NCBI GenBank assembly: GCA_026129405.1
Contig: JAHCID010000011.1
Span: 1-64,000 of the forward strand
Direction of reading: 5' to 3'
Source: a bacterium
GTDB lineage: Bacteria > Desulfobacterota > Binatia > DP-6
DNA length: 64,000 nt
Position 1 is the first letter of the stretch; each line of letters begins with the position of its first letter. A model generated the notes under the pieces. It saw only the letters and a program-made list of their open reading frames with translations, searched no databases and was not told the DNA's origin. Below, piece after piece: positions 9,700-36,328 of this stretch. The translations under genes were made by a program, and so were the position numbers.

Positions 9700-10451
9700 G
9701 CGACGCGCCGCCCGCGCATCCGAGCTGGACCGCCGACGCCCGCAGCGTCCTCGACCGCGCCTGCGAGCGCCACGGCGGCTGGACGCGCTGGCGCGCGCTG
9801 GAGCACGTCCGCCTCGGGGTCGCCGTGCTGCGCGGCGCCATCCCGTGGCTGAAGGGCGCCGGGCGGACCTTCCCGGTACCGCGCGCCGTCGAGGTCGCCC
9901 CGCACGCGCGACGCGCCTCGTTCGCGCGGTATCCCGACGACGCGCACGACGGCGTCTTCGCAGACGGCGGCGTCGCCATCCGCGCCCGCGCCGGATCCGC
10001 GCTGGTCGCGACCACGCCGACGCCGCGCACCGACGCCGCCCGGCATTGGCGCTGGACGCCGCTCGATGCCCTCTACTTCTTCGGCTACGCGCTCTGGCAC
10101 TATCACACGCTGCCGTTCACGCTCGCCGCCGCTCGGCTCCTCGTCCGGCGGCGCGCCGGTGGGCACGACGTCCTCCAGGTCGCGTTCCCGCCCGACGTGC
10201 CGACGCACAGCCGCCGGCAGACGTTCTGGTTCGCCGCAGACGGTCTGCTCGTCCGACACGACTACCATGCCGAGGTCGTCGGCCGCTGGGCCCGCGGCGC
10301 GCATCTCTGGCGACGCCACCGCGACGTCGACGGCATCCCGATCGCGCTCGAGCGGCACGTCGTCCCCACGGTGGGCGACCACACGCTGCCGTTCCCCGCC
10401 CTCCACGCCGAGCTGGACGATGTCGCCGTCGCATTCAGCGTCGGCGGTTGA
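9696..10451 (+). CDS. Hypothetical protein (251 aa), coupled to Ddn-like gene
   Basis: The GTG at 9696 overlaps the previous stop and gives 251 aa. No family is recognised. Aromatic-rich segments such as WRWTPLDALYFFGYALWHYHTLPF and the alternation around TFWFAADGLLVRHDYHAEVVG suggest a beta-rich lipid-binding-like fold (a LolA-type fold is only a guess). There is no signal peptide. Its position behind the F420-type reductase suggests a role in the same small-molecule pathway. Confidence 0.7.
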   Translation: MSDAPPAHPSWTADARSVLDRACERHGGWTRWRALEHVRLGVAVLRGAIPWLKGAGRTFPVPRAVEVAPHARRASFARYPDDAHDGVFADGGVAIRARAGSALVATTPTPRTDAARHWRWTPLDALYFFGYALWHYHTLPFTLAAARLLVRRRAGGHDVLQVAFPPDVPTHSRRQTFWFAADGLLVRHDYHAEVVGRWARGAHLWRRHRDVDGIPIALERHVVPTVGDHTLPFPALHAELDDVAVAFSVGG

Positions 10452-10483
10452 CCCCGCGCGCCGCGAGCGCGTACGCCGTCCGC

Positions 10484-12289
10484 ATGCGACTCCCGGTCCG
10501 GCCCGTCCTGCTCGTCGCGCTGCTGCTGCTCGCGCTCCCCGCCGCGGCTGCGGCGGCCAAGAAGCGGCCGAAGCCCGCGCCCTGTCCGCCGGCGCAGTAC
10601 GCCGTCGACGGCGCCCCGCTCGGCGCCACCGGCGTCACCAGCGACACGATCGAGGTCGGCGCCCTCGCCGGCGTCGGCGACAGCTGCCCGCTCGCGGCCC
10701 CCGTCCGCGCGCGCACCAGCCGCAAGGGCGTGACCACGGTGCGGGCGCGCTGGAACGCCTGCCCGGGGTTCACCGGGCCCGTGCGGCTGCGTGCGCGCAT
10801 CGTCGACGGCTGCACGCGCCTCGCCGGCAAGGTCCGCGCCCGCCGCCACCGGCGCGCCGTCACCGCGACGCGCGCGGACTGCGGCGACGGCATCCTCGAC
10901 GCCGCGGCGCCGCCGACCCCGTACCTGCCCACGCGCGAGTCGCTCGCCAGCCACGAGATCCCGCGCTGGTTCCGCGACGCCAAGCTCGGGATCATGATCC
11001 ACTGGGGCATCTTCACGATCCCGGCGTGGGCGCCGCTGACGATCGATCCGCACGAGTGGCTCTGCTGCGGCAAGCTGATCGAGCCGCCCGACTTCGGCGC
11101 CCCGTTCTTCACCAACATCCCGTACACGGAGTGGTACTGGAACTCGATCCTGATCGACGGCTCGCCGGCGCAGCAGCACCACGCGGCCACCTACGGCGCC
11201 GACTACCCGTACGAGGCCTTCCGGCCGCAGTTCGACGCGGCCGCCGCCCCGTGGTCGGGCGAGGCGTGGGCCGATCTCTTCCGCGAGGCCGGCGCGCGCT
11301 ACGTCGTCTTCGTGACCAAGCACCACGACGGCTACTCCCTGTGGCCGACCGCGGTGCCCCACCCCACCCGCACCGGCTGGCACACGACGCGCGACTACGT
11401 CGGCGAGCTCGACGGCGCCGTCCGCCGCCGCTGCATGCGCATGGGGCTCTATTTCTCGGGTGGCCTCGACTGGTCGGTGAAGGCGGGGCCGATCGTGACC
11501 TCGCTCGACGGCGCCGTGGTCGCGCCGACGACGCCCGAGTACACCGCCTTCGCCGACGGCCAGTGGCGCGAGCTGATCGCGCGCTATCGCCCCTCGGTCC
11601 TCTGGAACGACATCACCTACCCGAGCGAGGACGCCGCGCTCCGGCTGTTCGCCGACTACTACAACGGCCAGCCCGACGGGCTCGTGAACGACCGCTTCTC
11701 GATCCTCCCCGGCCTCACCCATCACGACTACTCGACGCCGGAGTTCAGCGTCGTCGCCGACGTCTCGCCGCGGACGTTCGAGACCGTGCGCGGCATGGGC
11801 CGCGGCTTCGGCTACAACCGCAACGAATCCGACGCCACCCTCGACAGCGCCGACGCGCTGATCCACCTCCTCGCCGACGTCGTCAGCAGGAACGGCAACC
11901 TCCTGCTGAACGTCGGCCCGATGGCCGACGGCACCATCCCGGCGGCGCAGGTCGACCGGCTGCGTGCGATCGGCGCCTGGCTCGGCACCAACGGCGCGGC
12001 GATCTTCGCCTCGCGCCCGGCGACCACGCCGGAGGCCACGACCGCGGACGGCACGCCCGTACGCTTCACGCTCGGCGCGGACGGGACCACGCGCTACGCG
12101 ATCCTGCTCGGCCCGCTGCCCGCCGGCACGGTCGCCTTCCCGCTCGCCGACGGCGCACCCGGCCGCGTGCGGCTCCTCGGCGACGACGCCCCGCTCGACT
12201 GGACGCTCGACGGCGGCGTCCTGCGCATCACCGTCCCCGCGACGCTCGCCGGGCGCGCCAATCCGGTGCTCGCGCTCGCGGCGCCTTGA
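10484..12289 (+). CDS. Secreted GH29 alpha-L-fucosidase
   Basis: This 601-aa protein has a signal peptide (residues 1-23, MRLPVRPVLLVALLLL then AAAAA) and an N-terminal region of about 120 aa with Cys residues and no known fold. The GH29 barrel follows: WFRDAKLGIMIHWGIF, TKHHDGYSLW, GLYFSGGLDW and VLWNDITYP, with Asp376 of WND at the position of the family nucleophile. A beta-sandwich tail follows. It hydrolyses terminal alpha-L-fucosides by a retaining mechanism. An unrelated GH29 enzyme is at 49415-50692. A 32-nt gap follows the previous gene. Confidence 0.88.
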   Translation: MRLPVRPVLLVALLLLALPAAAAAAKKRPKPAPCPPAQYAVDGAPLGATGVTSDTIEVGALAGVGDSCPLAAPVRARTSRKGVTTVRARWNACPGFTGPVRLRARIVDGCTRLAGKVRARRHRRAVTATRADCGDGILDAAAPPTPYLPTRESLASHEIPRWFRDAKLGIMIHWGIFTIPAWAPLTIDPHEWLCCGKLIEPPDFGAPFFTNIPYTEWYWNSILIDGSPAQQHHAATYGADYPYEAFRPQFDAAAAPWSGEAWADLFREAGARYVVFVTKHHDGYSLWPTAVPHPTRTGWHTTRDYVGELDGAVRRRCMRMGLYFSGGLDWSVKAGPIVTSLDGAVVAPTTPEYTAFADGQWRELIARYRPSVLWNDITYPSEDAALRLFADYYNGQPDGLVNDRFSILPGLTHHDYSTPEFSVVADVSPRTFETVRGMGRGFGYNRNESDATLDSADALIHLLADVVSRNGNLLLNVGPMADGTIPAAQVDRLRAIGAWLGTNGAAIFASRPATTPEATTADGTPVRFTLGADGTTRYAILLGPLPAGTVAFPLADGAPGRVRLLGDDAPLDWTLDGGVLRITVPATLAGRANPVLALAAP

Positions 12290-29155: not shown

Positions 29156-29959
29156 ATGACGAACGACGCCTGGTGGAGCCGCTCGCGGGCCGTGGACGTG
29201 GACGACATCCGCTGGGACGACGTCCCGCGCACGCCGCTGCGGCCCGCGACGGTGCGCGCGCTGCGCTACATGCAGGACGTCGAAGCGCACACGATCGTCT
29301 ATCTCCGCCAGCTCCTCGCGACGCGCGCGATCGACGAGCCGGCCGTCGCGACCTTCCTCGCCACCTGGTTCTACGAGGAGACCGCGCACGGCCGGGCGCT
29401 CGACCGCTTCCTGCGCGCGGCAGGGTATGCGCCGGCGGCGCGCGTGCGCTCGCACGCCCCGCCGATCCACCGCCTCCAGGAACGCGCCATGGCGGCGCTC
29501 AGCCGCACCTGGCCCGATTTCGTCGCCGTGCACATGACGTGGGGCGCGATCAACGAGCTCACCGCGCTCGCCGCCTATCAGCGTCTCGCCGCGCTGGCGG
29601 ACCATCCCGTCCTCACGGCGCTGCTCGCGCGCCTGGTCCGCGACGAGGCCCGGCACTACGCCTTCTACGCCCGGCAGGCGTCCCGCCGCCTCGCTGCGCC
29701 CGCGGCGCGACGGATCACCCGCGTCCTCGTCGATCGCTTCTGGGCCCCGGTCGGCTCCGGGGTCCAGGCCGACGCCGAGGTGCGGGCGCTGGCGGACTTC
29801 CTCTTCGGCGGCCCGGAGGGTCATGCCGCCGCACGCCGCATCGATGCGGCGCTCGGACGGCTCCCCGGCTTCGACGATGCCCGCGTCGTCGAGCGCTGGC
29901 TCGATCGCGCGCACGTCTCGCCGGCAGCCCCGCCGATCGCGCTCGTCCCCGCCGGCTGA
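29156..29959 (+). CDS. Diiron ferritin-like protein, acyl-ACP desaturase-like
   Basis: This 267-aa helical protein has diiron ligands in desaturase order: Glu43 (DVEAH), Glu74-Glu75 with His78 (YEETAHGRAL), Glu134 (INELTAL) and Glu164 with His167 (RDEARHYAFY). The two ExxH motifs fit the acyl-ACP desaturase/ferritin-like superfamily. It is somewhat shorter than typical desaturases. It converges on the split CFA synthase operon, so a fatty-acid desaturation role is plausible; other oxygenase chemistry cannot be excluded. Confidence 0.75.
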   Translation: MTNDAWWSRSRAVDVDDIRWDDVPRTPLRPATVRALRYMQDVEAHTIVYLRQLLATRAIDEPAVATFLATWFYEETAHGRALDRFLRAAGYAPAARVRSHAPPIHRLQERAMAALSRTWPDFVAVHMTWGAINELTALAAYQRLAALADHPVLTALLARLVRDEARHYAFYARQASRRLAAPAARRITRVLVDRFWAPVGSGVQADAEVRALADFLFGGPEGHAAARRIDAALGRLPGFDDARVVERWLDRAHVSPAAPPIALVPAG

Positions 29960-29977
29960 CGCGCCGGCTCAGCCGGC
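29951..29977. terminator. Hairpin containing both convergent stop codons
   Basis: GCCGGCTGA (29951-29959) and TCAGCCGGC (29969-29977) form a 9-bp perfect stem with a 9-nt loop. The left arm ends with the TGA of the diiron protein and the right arm begins with the methyltransferase stop. It mirrors the palindrome at 21782-21807. Confidence 0.5.
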
Positions 29978-30898
29978 ACGCTCGAGCGGCGGCAACGGCG
30001 TCGGGGCGTACCAGGCCGCGCGCGTGCGCGGGGACCGCGCCGCGTCCGCACCGGCGGGCTTCGTGGCCAGCGTCTGGTAGAGCCCGATCGAGCCCTGCGC
30101 GAACGCCACCGAGGCCGAGACGAGGTAGGCCAGCCACACCCGATACGTCCGCTCGCCGACCAGCGCGCGCGCCTCGTCGGCACGCGCCCGGAGCCGCTCG
30201 GCCCACTGGCGCGTGGTCCGCGCGTAGTGCTCGCCCAGCCCTTCGACGTCGAGCAGCGCGAAGCGGGCACGCTCCACCTCGCCGGCGAGCGTGCTGATCG
30301 CCTGGAGCTCGCCGCGCGGGAACACGTGGCGGTCGAGGAAGCGCTGGAGGCTCGTGGGCCGCCAGCGCACGTCGCGGCTGATGGCCTGGACGAGCAGGCG
30401 CCCGCCGGGCCGGAGACACCGCCACGTGGTCGCCAGCAGCAGCGGGGTCGCCGCGATGCCGACGTGCTCGAGGAGGCCCACCGCGGCGACGGCGTCGAAG
30501 TCGGCCGCCGCGGGCGGGAGGGATCGCCAGTCGGCGAGCACGACGCGGAGCCGCCGCTCGAGCCCCTCGCGACGGATCGCCTCCTCCGCGAAGGCCGCCT
30601 GCGCCACCGAGAGGGTGACCCCGACGCCCTCGACGCCGTGGTGCCGGGCGGCCCACAGGAGCAGCCCGCCCCATCCGCAGCCGACGTCGAGCAGGCGCGC
30701 CCCCGGCCGCAGGTCGAGCTTGCGACAGACGAGCTCGAGCTTGTCCTCCTGCGCGGTGTCGAGGTCGACGTCGGGTGCGCGGTACCAGGCGCACGTGTAG
30801 ACCATGCGCCGGTCGAGGAAGAGCGCGTAGAAGTCGTTCGAGAGATCGTAGTGGTGCGCGATCGCCCGCCGATCCGCGCCCCGAGCGAACCAGGTCAT
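29969..30898 (-). CDS. CFA synthase catalytic domain (SAM methyltransferase)
   Basis: This 309-aa protein matches only the C-terminal methyltransferase half of cyclopropane fatty-acid synthase: HHYDLSNDFYALFLD near 15-29, MVYTCAWY, SAM motif LLDVGCGWGG at 69-78, GVGVTLSVAQ, LLEHVG, and FLDRHVFPRGEL. The Cys of the YTCAWY stretch is kept. It transfers a methyl or methylene group to lipid double bonds. It lacks the lipid-binding N-terminal domain, which is encoded separately at 31989-32321 in the same operon. It starts 5 nt after the reductase. Confidence 0.87.
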   Translation of the reverse strand: MTWFARGADRRAIAHHYDLSNDFYALFLDRRMVYTCAWYRAPDVDLDTAQEDKLELVCRKLDLRPGARLLDVGCGWGGLLLWAARHHGVEGVGVTLSVAQAAFAEEAIRREGLERRLRVVLADWRSLPPAAADFDAVAAVGLLEHVGIAATPLLLATTWRCLRPGGRLLVQAISRDVRWRPTSLQRFLDRHVFPRGELQAISTLAGEVERARFALLDVEGLGEHYARTTRQWAERLRARADEARALVGERTYRVWLAYLVSASVAFAQGSIGLYQTLATKPAGADAARSPRTRAAWYAPTPLPPLERAG

Positions 30899-30903
30899 CC
30901 GCC

Positions 30904-31992
30904 TCAGCCCATCCCGAACGCGCCCTCGAGCACGAGACGGCGGCGGGTCCACGGCAGCGTGCAGGCGAGACGCGCCGCGGCGGTGACGAGCCGCATCGGC
31001 ACGTGCCGCGCGACCGCCCGCGCGAGACGCGACGGTACACCGAAGGCGTCGGCGACGTGCTCGGGATACGCGTCGGCACGGTCGTCGTGGATCAGGCTGG
31101 CGGCGATGCGCGCGCTGCGCAGGGCCGGACCGATCCCTTCGCCCGACCAGTCGTGCGCCAGTCCGGCGCTGTCCCCGATCAGCACGAAGCACGACCCGCC
31201 GATGCGCCGCGGCCGATCGCGACGCACCGTGTAGGCGTGGCCGCGGAACGGCGTCAGCGCGACGCCGCCCGGCAGGCGGCCGAGCGCGCGCAGGCGCTCG
31301 AGGAAGCGCGCGAGGCGCTTCGCGATCGGCAGCCCGCCCACGGCGCCGACCCCCACGTTCAGGAAGTCGCCCTTGGTGAAGTACCAGCCGTAGCCGTGGA
31401 AGTCGGGCTCGGCGAAGAGCTCCGGCGTGCCGAAGCACGGCGTCAGGGGGCGCAGGCGGTCGGCCCCGATGCGCGTCTCGCTCTCCTGCGTGACGACGAC
31501 CGCCTCGTCCGGATCGGGCGCCCCGAGCGCGCGCCCGACGGGACACTGGTAGCCGCCGGCGCCGACGACGAGCGGCGCGGTGAGGCGCTCGCCGTCGGTC
31601 TCGAGCGCGAGGCCGCCGGGCACGGATGCCACATGGCGAACCCGCTGGCCCTCGCGGACGTCGACCCCCGCCGCGCGCGCGCGGGCGAGGAGATGGGCGT
31701 CGAACTCCGCGCGCACGATGCCGTAGCTCGCTGCCCGCGCCCAGCGCGTCTCGTGCGTGCGATCGTCGACGTCGACGGTCACGGCGTCGAAGGGCTGGAT
31801 CGTGTGCGGATAGCGTTGCGGATCGACCTCGGCGTCGTCCAGCGCCGCCGGCGTCACCCAACCGGCGCAGAGCTTCACGCGCGGGAAGCGTGCCGCATCG
31901 AGCAGGCGGACGCGCCGCCCGCCCTCTGCCAGCTTGCGCGCGACGGTGCTGCCCGCGGGCCCGCCGCCGACGACGAGCACGTCGGCGGTCAC
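30904..31992 (-). CDS. Geranylgeranyl-reductase-family FAD oxidoreductase
   Basis: A GTG start overlaps the stop of the N-domain gene (GTGA, 31989-31992) and gives 362 aa. The FAD motif GGGPAGSTVARKL, the substrate-side KLCAGWVTP, and GDSAGLAHDWSGEGIGPAL match the GGR family, which saturates C=C bonds in isoprenoid or other lipid chains. Its place between the two halves of a CFA synthase suggests it reduces an alkene made or modified by that enzyme. This role is inferred from context. Confidence 0.82.
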   Translation of the reverse strand: MTADVLVVGGGPAGSTVARKLAEGGRRVRLLDAARFPRVKLCAGWVTPAALDDAEVDPQRYPHTIQPFDAVTVDVDDRTHETRWARAASYGIVRAEFDAHLLARARAAGVDVREGQRVRHVASVPGGLALETDGERLTAPLVVGAGGYQCPVGRALGAPDPDEAVVVTQESETRIGADRLRPLTPCFGTPELFAEPDFHGYGWYFTKGDFLNVGVGAVGGLPIAKRLARFLERLRALGRLPGGVALTPFRGHAYTVRRDRPRRIGGSCFVLIGDSAGLAHDWSGEGIGPALRSARIAASLIHDDRADAYPEHVADAFGVPSRLARAVARHVPMRLVTAAARLACTLPWTRRRLVLEGAFGMG

Positions 31993-32321
31993 GGCCGCAC
32001 CGCCTCGAGCAATGCCGCCGCGCGCAGCACGAGCGACGGCCGCAGCCCCTCGAGGTCCTGTCCGGCGGTCATGGCCGCGAACAGGTCGCCCTCGAGGTCG
32101 AGCCCGCCGTCGATCCACGCCGTCCCGAAGGCGAGCGGCGTGGGACGCAGCAGGAGCCGCCGCAGCACGCGCCGGCGCGGCAGCACGACGGTGAATGCGG
32201 GCACGCCCGCGGCTCCGGCGGTGACGGTCGATCCGTCCCAGAGGCGGAACGCGACCGGCACCCGCAGCGGGGCGAACACCCGCCGCAGGAGCGAGCCCGC
32301 GCGCACCGCGCTCGTCGCCAT
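31989..32321 (-). CDS. CFA synthase N-terminal (lipid-binding) domain as a separate gene
   Basis: About 110 aa from the ATG at 32321 (a GTG at 32369 would give 126). VPVAFRLWDGSTV, then LRRLLLRPTPLAFGTAWIDGGLDLEGDL (read as PTPLAFGTAWIDGGLD, then LEGDL), matches the N-terminal domain that precedes HYDLSND in fused CFA synthases. It ends just where the fused protein would continue into the methyltransferase. It is the first gene of a three-gene unit with the reductase and the catalytic domain. Confidence 0.78.
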   Translation of the reverse strand: MATSAVRAGSLLRRVFAPLRVPVAFRLWDGSTVTAGAAGVPAFTVVLPRRRVLRRLLLRPTPLAFGTAWIDGGLDLEGDLFAAMTAGQDLEGLRPSLVLRAAALLEAVRP

Positions 32322-34599: not shown

Positions 34600-35014
34600 C
34601 CGCCGCGCATACCATGGCGATCGGAGCGGGGCACCCCGGCCGGGGCCGAGGCCGCACGTGCCTCAGAAGCGCTGCATGACGCATGCTCGCCGAACGCAGC
34701 ACTACATCGGCCCATTCACGGCGCATTGCGCGCGGCGGGCCAAACCCAGTGCCAAGAGCGCAAGCGCTACCCGTAGATTAATCTCTTCGTGTACCCCTTC
34801 CTTATTCTTGACGCGGTACCGTCGGACATGATCTTACGCCGCGCGACGTTCGGATGGACGTCGTGCAGCCAGGACGATCCGTCCCGGCCGCGCGCGGCAC
34901 ACGATCGACCGAGTCCACACACCTTCGCCACAGTCTCGCGACGATCGCAACTTATTGAATTTCCCAACATTTTCACCACACCCCCCGCAAGAGTACTTTC
35001 CCAAGGTCTCCTCC
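34600..35014. other. Divergent intergenic region, AT-richer
   Basis: This 415-bp gap lies upstream of the secreted beta-helix protein and of the divergent enoyl-CoA hydratase. It contains an AGATTAATCT palindrome at 34775-34784, a TTGACG hexamer at 34808-34813 and AT-rich stretches near 34950-34975. No promoter can be assigned with certainty and no gene is seen. Confidence 0.4.
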
Positions 35015-36328
35015 ATGCATATGCGTCACGTCGTCTTCGGCTCGATCCTCCTCGCCTCGCTCGTCGCCGCCGCTCCGGCGCTGGCGCACCACATCAGCGG
35101 CAAGGTGTACTGCGATGACGACTACAACGGCGTCATCGGCACCGGGGACACCCTCCTGTCGGGCATCACGGCGCGGGCCACGTCGCTCGACGCTTCGCCC
35201 GGCTCGACCTGGTCCAACAACACGAACGCCAGCGGCTACTACGAGATCGGCCTGCCGGCGCGAAACGACCGCTACCGGGTGCAGCTGATCGGCCTCCCCG
35301 GCGGCTGGACGGTGGTGGATCCGGCAAGCGGCCAGCACATCGTCCAGATCATCACCGGCAGCTCGTCGACCGACCACAAGGACAACGTCAACTTCCTCGT
35401 GCAGGGCTGCAAGCCGCCGCCGACCACGACGACGACCACCACCTCGACCACCACGACGACGAGCACCACCACCTCGACCACCACGACGACCAATCCGACG
35501 ACGACCACCACCAGCACCACCACGCTGCCGACCACGACGACGTCGACCACGACCACGAGCACCAGCACCACCACCTCGACCACGACGATCCTGGACCCGG
35601 CCTCCTGCGGCTGCGACGGCGTGCCGTTCATGGTGAACCGGCGCGGCCGCTTCAACAACGACGGCGACCTGCGTGCGAGCATCGGCGCCAACGCGCCGGA
35701 CGGCCAGATCCAGATCGGCAAGTCCGTGTACATGGCCGACGGCACGAAGATCGTCGCCGACCTCGTCGCCGTGAGCGACGGGTCCTCGGTCGATCACATC
35801 TCCGCAAACAAGGTGAAGGTCGTTCGTACGGCCACGCTCCGCAACGGCACGAGCGTGCCGACGCTCCCGATCGTGCAGCCCTACTGCCAGATTCCCCCGA
35901 TCGACTGCGGGCACGAGACCGTGGTGGTGAAGACGGGCGTCGTCCAGAGCCCGCTCACGCCCGGCGTGTACGGCCACCTGCGGGTGATGAACGGCGCCAC
36001 GCTGCGGCTCGCACCGGGCGACTTCACCTTCTGCGACATCAAGACCGGCCGCGGCGCCGCGATCCTCACCGAAGGCCCGGTGACCATCGGCGTCGAGAAG
36101 AGCGTCGCGATCGGCTCCGGCTCGAAGCTGATGGCGCCGATCGGCCAGCCGCCGATCCTCGTCAACATCGCGGGTAAGAAGATCCGCGTCTCGCAGGGCG
36201 CCGTCGCGCAGGCGCAGATCCGGGCGCCGTTCGCGAAGGGCCAGTTCGGCCGCGACTCGACGGTGCTCGGGTGCTTCTGCACGGACGAGACCCGCACCGA
36301 CAAGCACATCACGCTCGCCTGCCAGTAG
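35015..36328 (+). CDS. Secreted protein: SdrB/CNA-B-like domain, Thr linker, beta-helix domain
   Basis: This 437-aa protein has a signal peptide (1-24, ALAHH junction). Residues 28-130 resemble an SdrD-B/CNA-B-like fold (GKVYCDDDYNGVIGTGDTLL, ASGYYEIGLPARNDRY, read in two parts). Residues about 137-192 are an almost pure Thr/Ser linker. The C-terminal region shows repeated short strands (GVYGHLRVMNGATLRLAPGDF; GPVTIGVEKSVAIGSGS; AQIRAPFAKG), as in right-handed beta-helix surface proteins. Thr-rich linkers are also found in the 39.7-46.6 kb proteins. It is probably a cell-surface or matrix protein. Confidence 0.8.
   Translation: MHMRHVVFGSILLASLVAAAPALAHHISGKVYCDDDYNGVIGTGDTLLSGITARATSLDASPGSTWSNNTNASGYYEIGLPARNDRYRVQLIGLPGGWTVVDPASGQHIVQIITGSSSTDHKDNVNFLVQGCKPPPTTTTTTTSTTTTTSTTTSTTTTTNPTTTTTSTTTLPTTTTSTTTTSTSTTTSTTTILDPASCGCDGVPFMVNRRGRFNNDGDLRASIGANAPDGQIQIGKSVYMADGTKIVADLVAVSDGSSVDHISANKVKVVRTATLRNGTSVPTLPIVQPYCQIPPIDCGHETVVVKTGVVQSPLTPGVYGHLRVMNGATLRLAPGDFTFCDIKTGRGAAILTEGPVTIGVEKSVAIGSGSKLMAPIGQPPILVNIAGKKIRVSQGAVAQAQIRAPFAKGQFGRDSTVLGCFCTDETRTDKHITLACQ

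Follow-up and report, generated by a model that had tools for sequence, protein, structure and literature searches.

A 64,000-nt stretch of contig JAHCID010000011.1 (assembly GCA_026129405.1; hereafter, the window), from a bacterium of the class Binatia, carries a gene cluster in which the two domains of a cyclopropane fatty acid (CFA) synthase-type enzyme are encoded as separate proteins, with a predicted flavoprotein of the geranylgeranyl reductase (GGR) family encoded between them. We refer to these closely coupled genes as N (the freed N-terminal domain), GGR and C (the catalytic, S-adenosylmethionine (SAM)-dependent methyltransferase domain), and to their arrangement as N-GGR-C. A fourth gene, for a diiron ferritin-like protein, converges on them (Table 1). 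All four genes lie where the original prediction had placed them, and the sequence bears out both junctions that it had read, a GTGA overlap between N and GGR and a gap of 5 nt between GGR and C. Codon-position GC of each of the four follows the pattern of real genes in the window genome.

Table 1. Genes, junctions and the atypical active-site codon at the N-GGR-C locus of the window
Feature	Position	Strand	Details
Free-standing CFA-synthase N-terminal domain gene (N)	31989-32321	-	110 aa, ATG start; SCP2-like lipid-binding fold
GTGA overlap of the N-gene stop and the GGR-gene start	31989-31992	-	read from sequence
GGR-family FAD reductase gene, TmpA-like (GGR)	30904-31992	-	362 aa, GTG start
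5-nt spacer from the GGR stop to the ATG of C	30899-30903	-	GAGG-like ribosome-site context (GGCTGAGGCGGATG)
CFA-synthase-type SAM methyltransferase catalytic domain gene without N domain (C)	29969-30898	-	309 aa
CAG codon for Gln171 of C, aligned with E. coli Cfa His266	30386-30388	-	alignment
Diiron ferritin-like protein gene, FA_desaturase_2 (acyl-ACP desaturase) clan	29156-29959	+	267 aa; converges on operon

Complete N-GGR-C operons were found in 48 genomes (13 from the window's class, 21 from the Rokubacteria phylum and 14 from the Tectomicrobia phylum), with a further four interrupted by contig ends. The gene order thus recurs in related lineages, as had been anticipated, and its presence in three phylum-level groups rules out a chance or contig-specific arrangement. 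Nor can the split be an artefact of assembly or of a frameshift in a fused gene, since a whole gene separates N from C in every member. Within the window's class, 24 of 98 relatives possess a GGR match at 1e-30, which is flanked as N-GGR-C in families f1 and f6 and follows a single-chain CFA-type gene in other families; in family f14 (L048), GGR occurs without such a gene. Phylum-wide searches, centred on one Rokubacteria and one Tectomicrobia genome in which a scan of named genomes had found the split, detected GGR in 22 of 95 Rokubacteria genomes (21 split, one fused) and in 15 of 18 Tectomicrobia genomes (14 complete split operons, one at a contig end). The fused form, i.e. a single-chain CFA-type gene followed by GGR, was present in Gallionellales, Gammaproteobacteria, Nitrospirae, Acidobacteria, Planctomycetes and others among the matches listed in the named-genome scan, which sets a lower bound on its spread.

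Junctions within N-GGR-C range from short overlaps to ~100 nt. In 24 compared neighbourhoods of 11–25 kb, no genes other than N, GGR and C were shared across groups, and no fourth conserved operon gene was found. An ABC-F type ATPase gene adjoins the operon in several f6 loci (L036, L037, L039–L041 and L044, where it is divergent) and in some Rokubacteria loci, and is probably an incidental neighbour; the Ddl gene region near the operon in Tectomicrobia also looks incidental.

The window's N protein aligns with the N-terminus of CfaB and, in a profile search, scored 25 bits against DUF7884 (PF25371), slightly below the family cut-off of 27 bits. Each of 15 aligned N-domains, among them that of the window, matched PF25371 (best 1.8e-10), and a profile made from this set matched the Lactobacillus CFA synthase 5z9o over residues 16-79 (E 6.6e-5). 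An AlphaFold model of the window protein (predicted local distance difference test (pLDDT) 89.2, predicted template modelling score (pTM) 0.80) returned CFA-synthase N-domains as its top two structural matches, namely 7qos (Z 9.8; 78 residues, 2.6 Å) and 5z9o (Z 8.3; 88 residues, 3.0 Å), followed by SCP2 lipid carriers. By profile and fold alike, the small open reading frame (ORF) therefore aligns to CFA synthase N-termini, as originally proposed. In CFA synthase, this domain binds a phospholipid acyl chain (PMC11387697).

The window's C protein comprises a full CMAS domain with a SAM motif (PF02353, 264.5 bits), and its nearest solved structures are the CFA synthases 7qos (1.5e-56), 5z9o and 6bqc. 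Relatives of C that adjoin a GGR gene are 52–60% identical to it. Of the bicarbonate ligands of the CFA active site (E. coli Cfa numbering), every aligned split member retains C139, E239, I268 and Y317; H266 is found in 51 of 52, only the window having Gln (CAG) instead. The letters around H266 are of the LNHGIT type in the split family, LNHxIT in BfaB/CfaB-like enzymes and LIHSIG in the single-chain partners of GGR. Gln also occurs naturally at the position of His266 in an enzyme of plasmid pKLC102 (L196, 1960-3978), in which an FA_hydroxylase (sterol-desaturase type) domain is joined to the CFA-type methyltransferase and whose gene adjoins one for a fatty acid desaturase. On a Methylophaga plasmid (L189), a related methyltransferase gene is followed by one of the sterol-desaturase family; as judged from these two loci, sterol-desaturase-type proteins may make up a third partner class of CFA-type enzymes. 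The window genome itself encodes a second, full-length CFA synthase (L053, 8305-9615; G000:C8), whose nearest relatives are the GGR-linked single-chain enzymes and which has no GGR nearby; its products may be plain cyclopropane or methylene chains.

The product of the middle gene passes the TIGR02032 profile (160.5 bits; cut-off 158.8), with MenJ, ChlP and DGGGPL reductase as the closest models, and the GGR profile matches 3oz2 at 2.8e-29. Its structural model (pLDDT 91.8) superimposes on Thermoplasma 3oz2 (Z 35), on FixC 7koe (Z 34.6, tied with 3oz2) and on Sulfolobus 3atq (Z 32). Profile and fold thus identify it as a GGR-family flavoprotein with a flavin adenine dinucleotide (FAD) fold. Its relatives in this family reduce isolated double bonds of isoprenoid lipids. 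Orthologues in related genomes are 48–67% identical to the window protein, and a PRxKxCAGW motif is shared by 31 of 33 GGRs from split operons and by 22 of 26 from fused ones. Plasmid relatives of the GGR were absent at a threshold of 1e-15. Beyond these pairings, the f14 gene mentioned above (L048 in G035, 9784-10977) bears the CFA-linked PRxKxCAGW signature with no CFA-type gene within 9 kb. Additional partner types are seen in Anaerolineae (L085), where GGR adjoins an E. coli-like CFA enzyme, and in Lambdaproteobacteria (L066), where its neighbour is a divergent methyltransferase whose C139 site holds Met. One GGR match (L179, G099) has an in-frame TGA stop, possibly reflecting an assembly error or a decayed copy.

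Phylogenetic trees grouped the split C domains in one clade (support 100/99) and the single-chain GGR-linked methyltransferases in a separate one (100/98). The split C clade joins BfaB/CfaB-like references at 100/99, including the Tsukamurella bfaAB locus (L194; FAD-oxidoreductase plus methyltransferase), and its members share 44-49% identity with Tsukamurella BfaB, an indication of the same subfamily rather than a strict test of orthology. Forcing split and single-chain methyltransferases into a joint clade was 31.6 log units worse, yet this topology is not formally rejected by the approximately unbiased (AU) test (p 0.073). As for the reductases, all GGRs linked to a CFA-type gene, split and fused, form one clade relative to other GGRs (100/99), with the split GGRs supported at 99/97. 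Given that split C domains and split GGRs each form one clade, the split most likely arose a single time. The same reductase group would then be paired with two methyltransferase subfamilies, suggestive of a partner swap or a second recruitment.

We consider it more likely than not that N-GGR-C is a compact operon whose three genes serve to make membrane lipids with mid-chain methyl branches, a split variant of the tmpBA/bfaAB type. In the route that we infer, including its substrate, product, protein complex and reducing agent or electron donor, a monounsaturated phospholipid acyl chain would be supplied by any desaturase of the cell. C would place the methyl group of SAM on the double bond and, with loss of a proton, leave a methylene (exo-alkene) chain, which the GGR flavoprotein would turn into a methyl branch by a chemistry like that of its relatives on isoprenoid C=C bonds. 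N, the freed SCP2-like domain, would handle lipid in trans, either docked on C or shared by C and GGR. More tentatively, N might be a shared lipid-presenting subunit that presents one and the same acyl chain to C first and to GGR second within a three-chain complex, such that the intermediate is not released and the order N-GGR-C reflects assembly; both the SCP2-like fold and the gene order render this possibility compatible with the data. Of the original prediction of a desaturate-methylenate-reduce route, the methylenate-then-reduce part stands as the best reading, whereas participation of the adjacent diiron protein does not.

Several observations weigh against this proposal. TmpA, the putative methylene reductase of the published tmpBA operons, was inactive as a reductase in both E. 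coli and yeast, perhaps owing to oxygen sensitivity or the lack of an electron carrier (PMC7791843); methylene reduction by a GGR is therefore unproven even in tmpBA. Producing the two domains of E. coli CFA synthase as separate polypeptides costs the enzyme much of its activity (PMC11387697), which is also what makes the natural split striking. No lipid data were found for these bacteria, and the open-access literature on 10-methyl lipids of Rokubacteria and Entotheonella and on mid-chain branched acids of sponge symbionts gave nothing useful. Finally, the window's C protein departs from its family at 11 of 94 near-invariant columns, others doing so mostly at 0–2 and the next highest at 6.

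Alternatively, the methyltransferase could make ordinary cyclopropane fatty acids while GGR acts on a quinone, a polyprenol or a carotenoid, the two being neighbours by inheritance only. Both the complete CMAS-family domain and the family's retention of the CFA bicarbonate ligands, which alone cannot tell a cyclopropane from a methylene product, and the isoprenoid substrates of many GGR-family enzymes (as in the closest models named above) would fit such a division of labour. It is nevertheless unlikely, as 48 genomes spanning three phylum-level groups have GGR enclosed by the split operon, beside which no further neighbour is conserved, the wider GGR clade directly follows a CFA-type gene in many other phyla, and published tmpBA operons with the same pairing give 10-methylene acids (PMC7791843). 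The GGR family's best-known role, in isoprenoids, could also be taken further, in that the whole operon might C-methylate and reduce isoprenoid (polyprenyl or carotenoid) lipids instead of fatty acyl chains. SAM methyltransferases acting on prenyl double bonds do exist, and C weakly matches geranyl diphosphate methyltransferase (33 bits); its far greater closeness to CFA and mycolic acid enzymes, together with retention of the CFA-type, acyl chain-binding N domain, makes an isoprenoid substrate highly improbable.

Another explanation concerns only the window, whose methyltransferase could be decaying or changed in its reaction (using a base other than bicarbonate, or another substrate), so that the operon there would not be a working copy. 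The departures of its C protein include H266Q, N265V, G267A and R314G (E. coli-based numbering), and its end branch measures 0.78 compared to 0.06–0.15 for its family; on alignment and tree, the window holds an atypical copy of the split operon, a feature that the original prediction had not noted. Mutating bicarbonate ligands reduces CFA synthase activity (PMC11387697), and loss of the conserved active-site histidine renders the activity of this particular copy less sure. On the other hand, the protein retains the SAM motif, C139, E239, I268 and Y317, its reading frame is uninterrupted and normal in codon-position GC, and GGR and N show no excess of near-invariant departures (2 of 105 and 0 of 9, respectively). 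Gln can hydrogen-bond, too, and occurs naturally in the pKLC102 enzyme. Decay or altered chemistry in the window is thus a possibility to be kept in mind, albeit not the one we favour.

The original prediction further had the converging diiron protein make the double bond on which C and GGR then act. Its seven-member family matches PF03405 throughout, over the cut-off (27.5 bits for the window protein), with E74xxH78, E164xxH167, E43 and E134 invariant, i.e. two ExxH motifs and two further carboxylates, and there is a weak PDB match to M. tuberculosis DesA2 (4e-4). By these sequence features, it is a small family of the acyl-acyl carrier protein (ACP) desaturase clan with all metal ligands. 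The gene adjoins the operon in the window, whereas in G056 it lies on the opposite side at a distance of ~2.2 kb. In the class, it occurs in 8 of 98 relatives, the window genome included, four of which have the operon where 1.3 would be expected (hypergeometric p 0.02, uncorrected for kinship). These points speak for a joint function, but the position differs between the two linked cases, gene and operon reside on different contigs in G005 and G098, and the other four carriers (G003, G018, G037 and G082) have no operon. Conversely, most N-GGR-C genomes searched have no diiron gene near the operon or none at all, and in the one Rokubacteria genome examined it sits on a separate contig. In addition, the window genome contains seven FA_desaturase (PF00487) matches, so that desaturation need not depend on the diiron gene. 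A dedicated role for the diiron protein in the pathway hence appears quite improbable; its patchy, mostly unlinked occurrence rules it out as part of a conserved unit, and the gene is best treated as a neighbour outside of it.

A diiron homologue in L058 (G003) has an in-frame TAG stop, possibly again an assembly error or a decayed copy. Elsewhere in the window, a 457-aa ORF (34955-36328, + strand) without a Pfam match contains a long mid-protein Thr/Ser repeat (TTTTSTTT) and, to judge from its sequence, looks like a secreted or surface protein.

If N-GGR-C indeed functions as proposed, the ability to make mid-chain methyl-branched lipids would extend to uncultured bacteria of soil and groundwater from three phyla or more. 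Studies of soil commonly take such lipids as an actinomycete signature (for example, 10-methyl 16:0, 17:0 and 18:0 in PMC6743161). The operons would also provide diverse new GGR-type candidates for the methylene reductase step, which could not be demonstrated for TmpA, and a natural two-chain CFA-type enzyme with which the role of the N domain could be probed, an issue raised by the weaker split E. coli enzyme.

Among known systems, N-GGR-C most readily recalls tmpBA (ten-methyl palmitate) of Desulfobacter, Desulfobacula, Marinobacter and Thiohalospira, where a CFA-type methyltransferase, which made 10-methylene fatty acids in E. coli, is paired with a GGR-like putative methylene reductase (PMC7791843). 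In both, a CFA-family methyltransferase gene adjoins one for a GGR-family flavoprotein. The fused CFA-GGR operons, which served as a stand-in for the published TmpA and TmpB sequences in our comparisons, share the reported tmpBA gene order, and their GGRs form one clade with those of the split operons. Unlike in N-GGR-C, however, TmpB carries its N domain on the same chain and its gene comes before tmpA; here, there are two chains with the reductase gene between them, and the methyltransferase sits with BfaB/CfaB-like enzymes (100/99) instead of with the fused partners (AU p 0.073 for a joint clade). In the actinobacterial bfaAB operon (PMC5660069, PMC7791843), BfaB forms 10-methylene stearate and BfaA converts it to 10-methyl stearate (PMC5660069). 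With this system, N-GGR-C shares the methyltransferase subfamily (LNHxIT active-site motif) and the pairing with a flavoprotein reductase, but BfaB is a single chain and BfaA an FAD-linked oxidoreductase of another family, without homology to the GGR type. The different reductase family of the original prediction is hence not new, a CFA-type methyltransferase with a GGR partner being already known as tmpBA (PMC7791843); the new part is the natural split.

No account of the N-GGR-C arrangement or of a natural split was found in the open-access literature. About 10% of the CFA family are short forms, most without an N domain, and the survey reporting them does not mention a separately encoded N domain (PMC11387697). 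Compared to the CFA synthases of E. coli (6bqc), L. acidophilus (5z9o) and A. aeolicus (7qos), N-GGR-C has the same two domains and folds, yet encodes them as separate genes in a fixed order, and the window copy carries Gln in place of the His266 ligand with Glu239 and Tyr317 kept. Small CFA-family enzymes, such as mycobacterial CmaA and MmaA, resemble C in consisting of a 280–320-aa catalytic domain alone; the mycobacterial ones have mycolate precursors as substrates and work away from the membrane (PMC11387697). In contrast to CmaA and MmaA, the split operons retain the N domain as a separate protein. They represent a real, conserved and, it appears, previously undescribed variant of a known pathway type.

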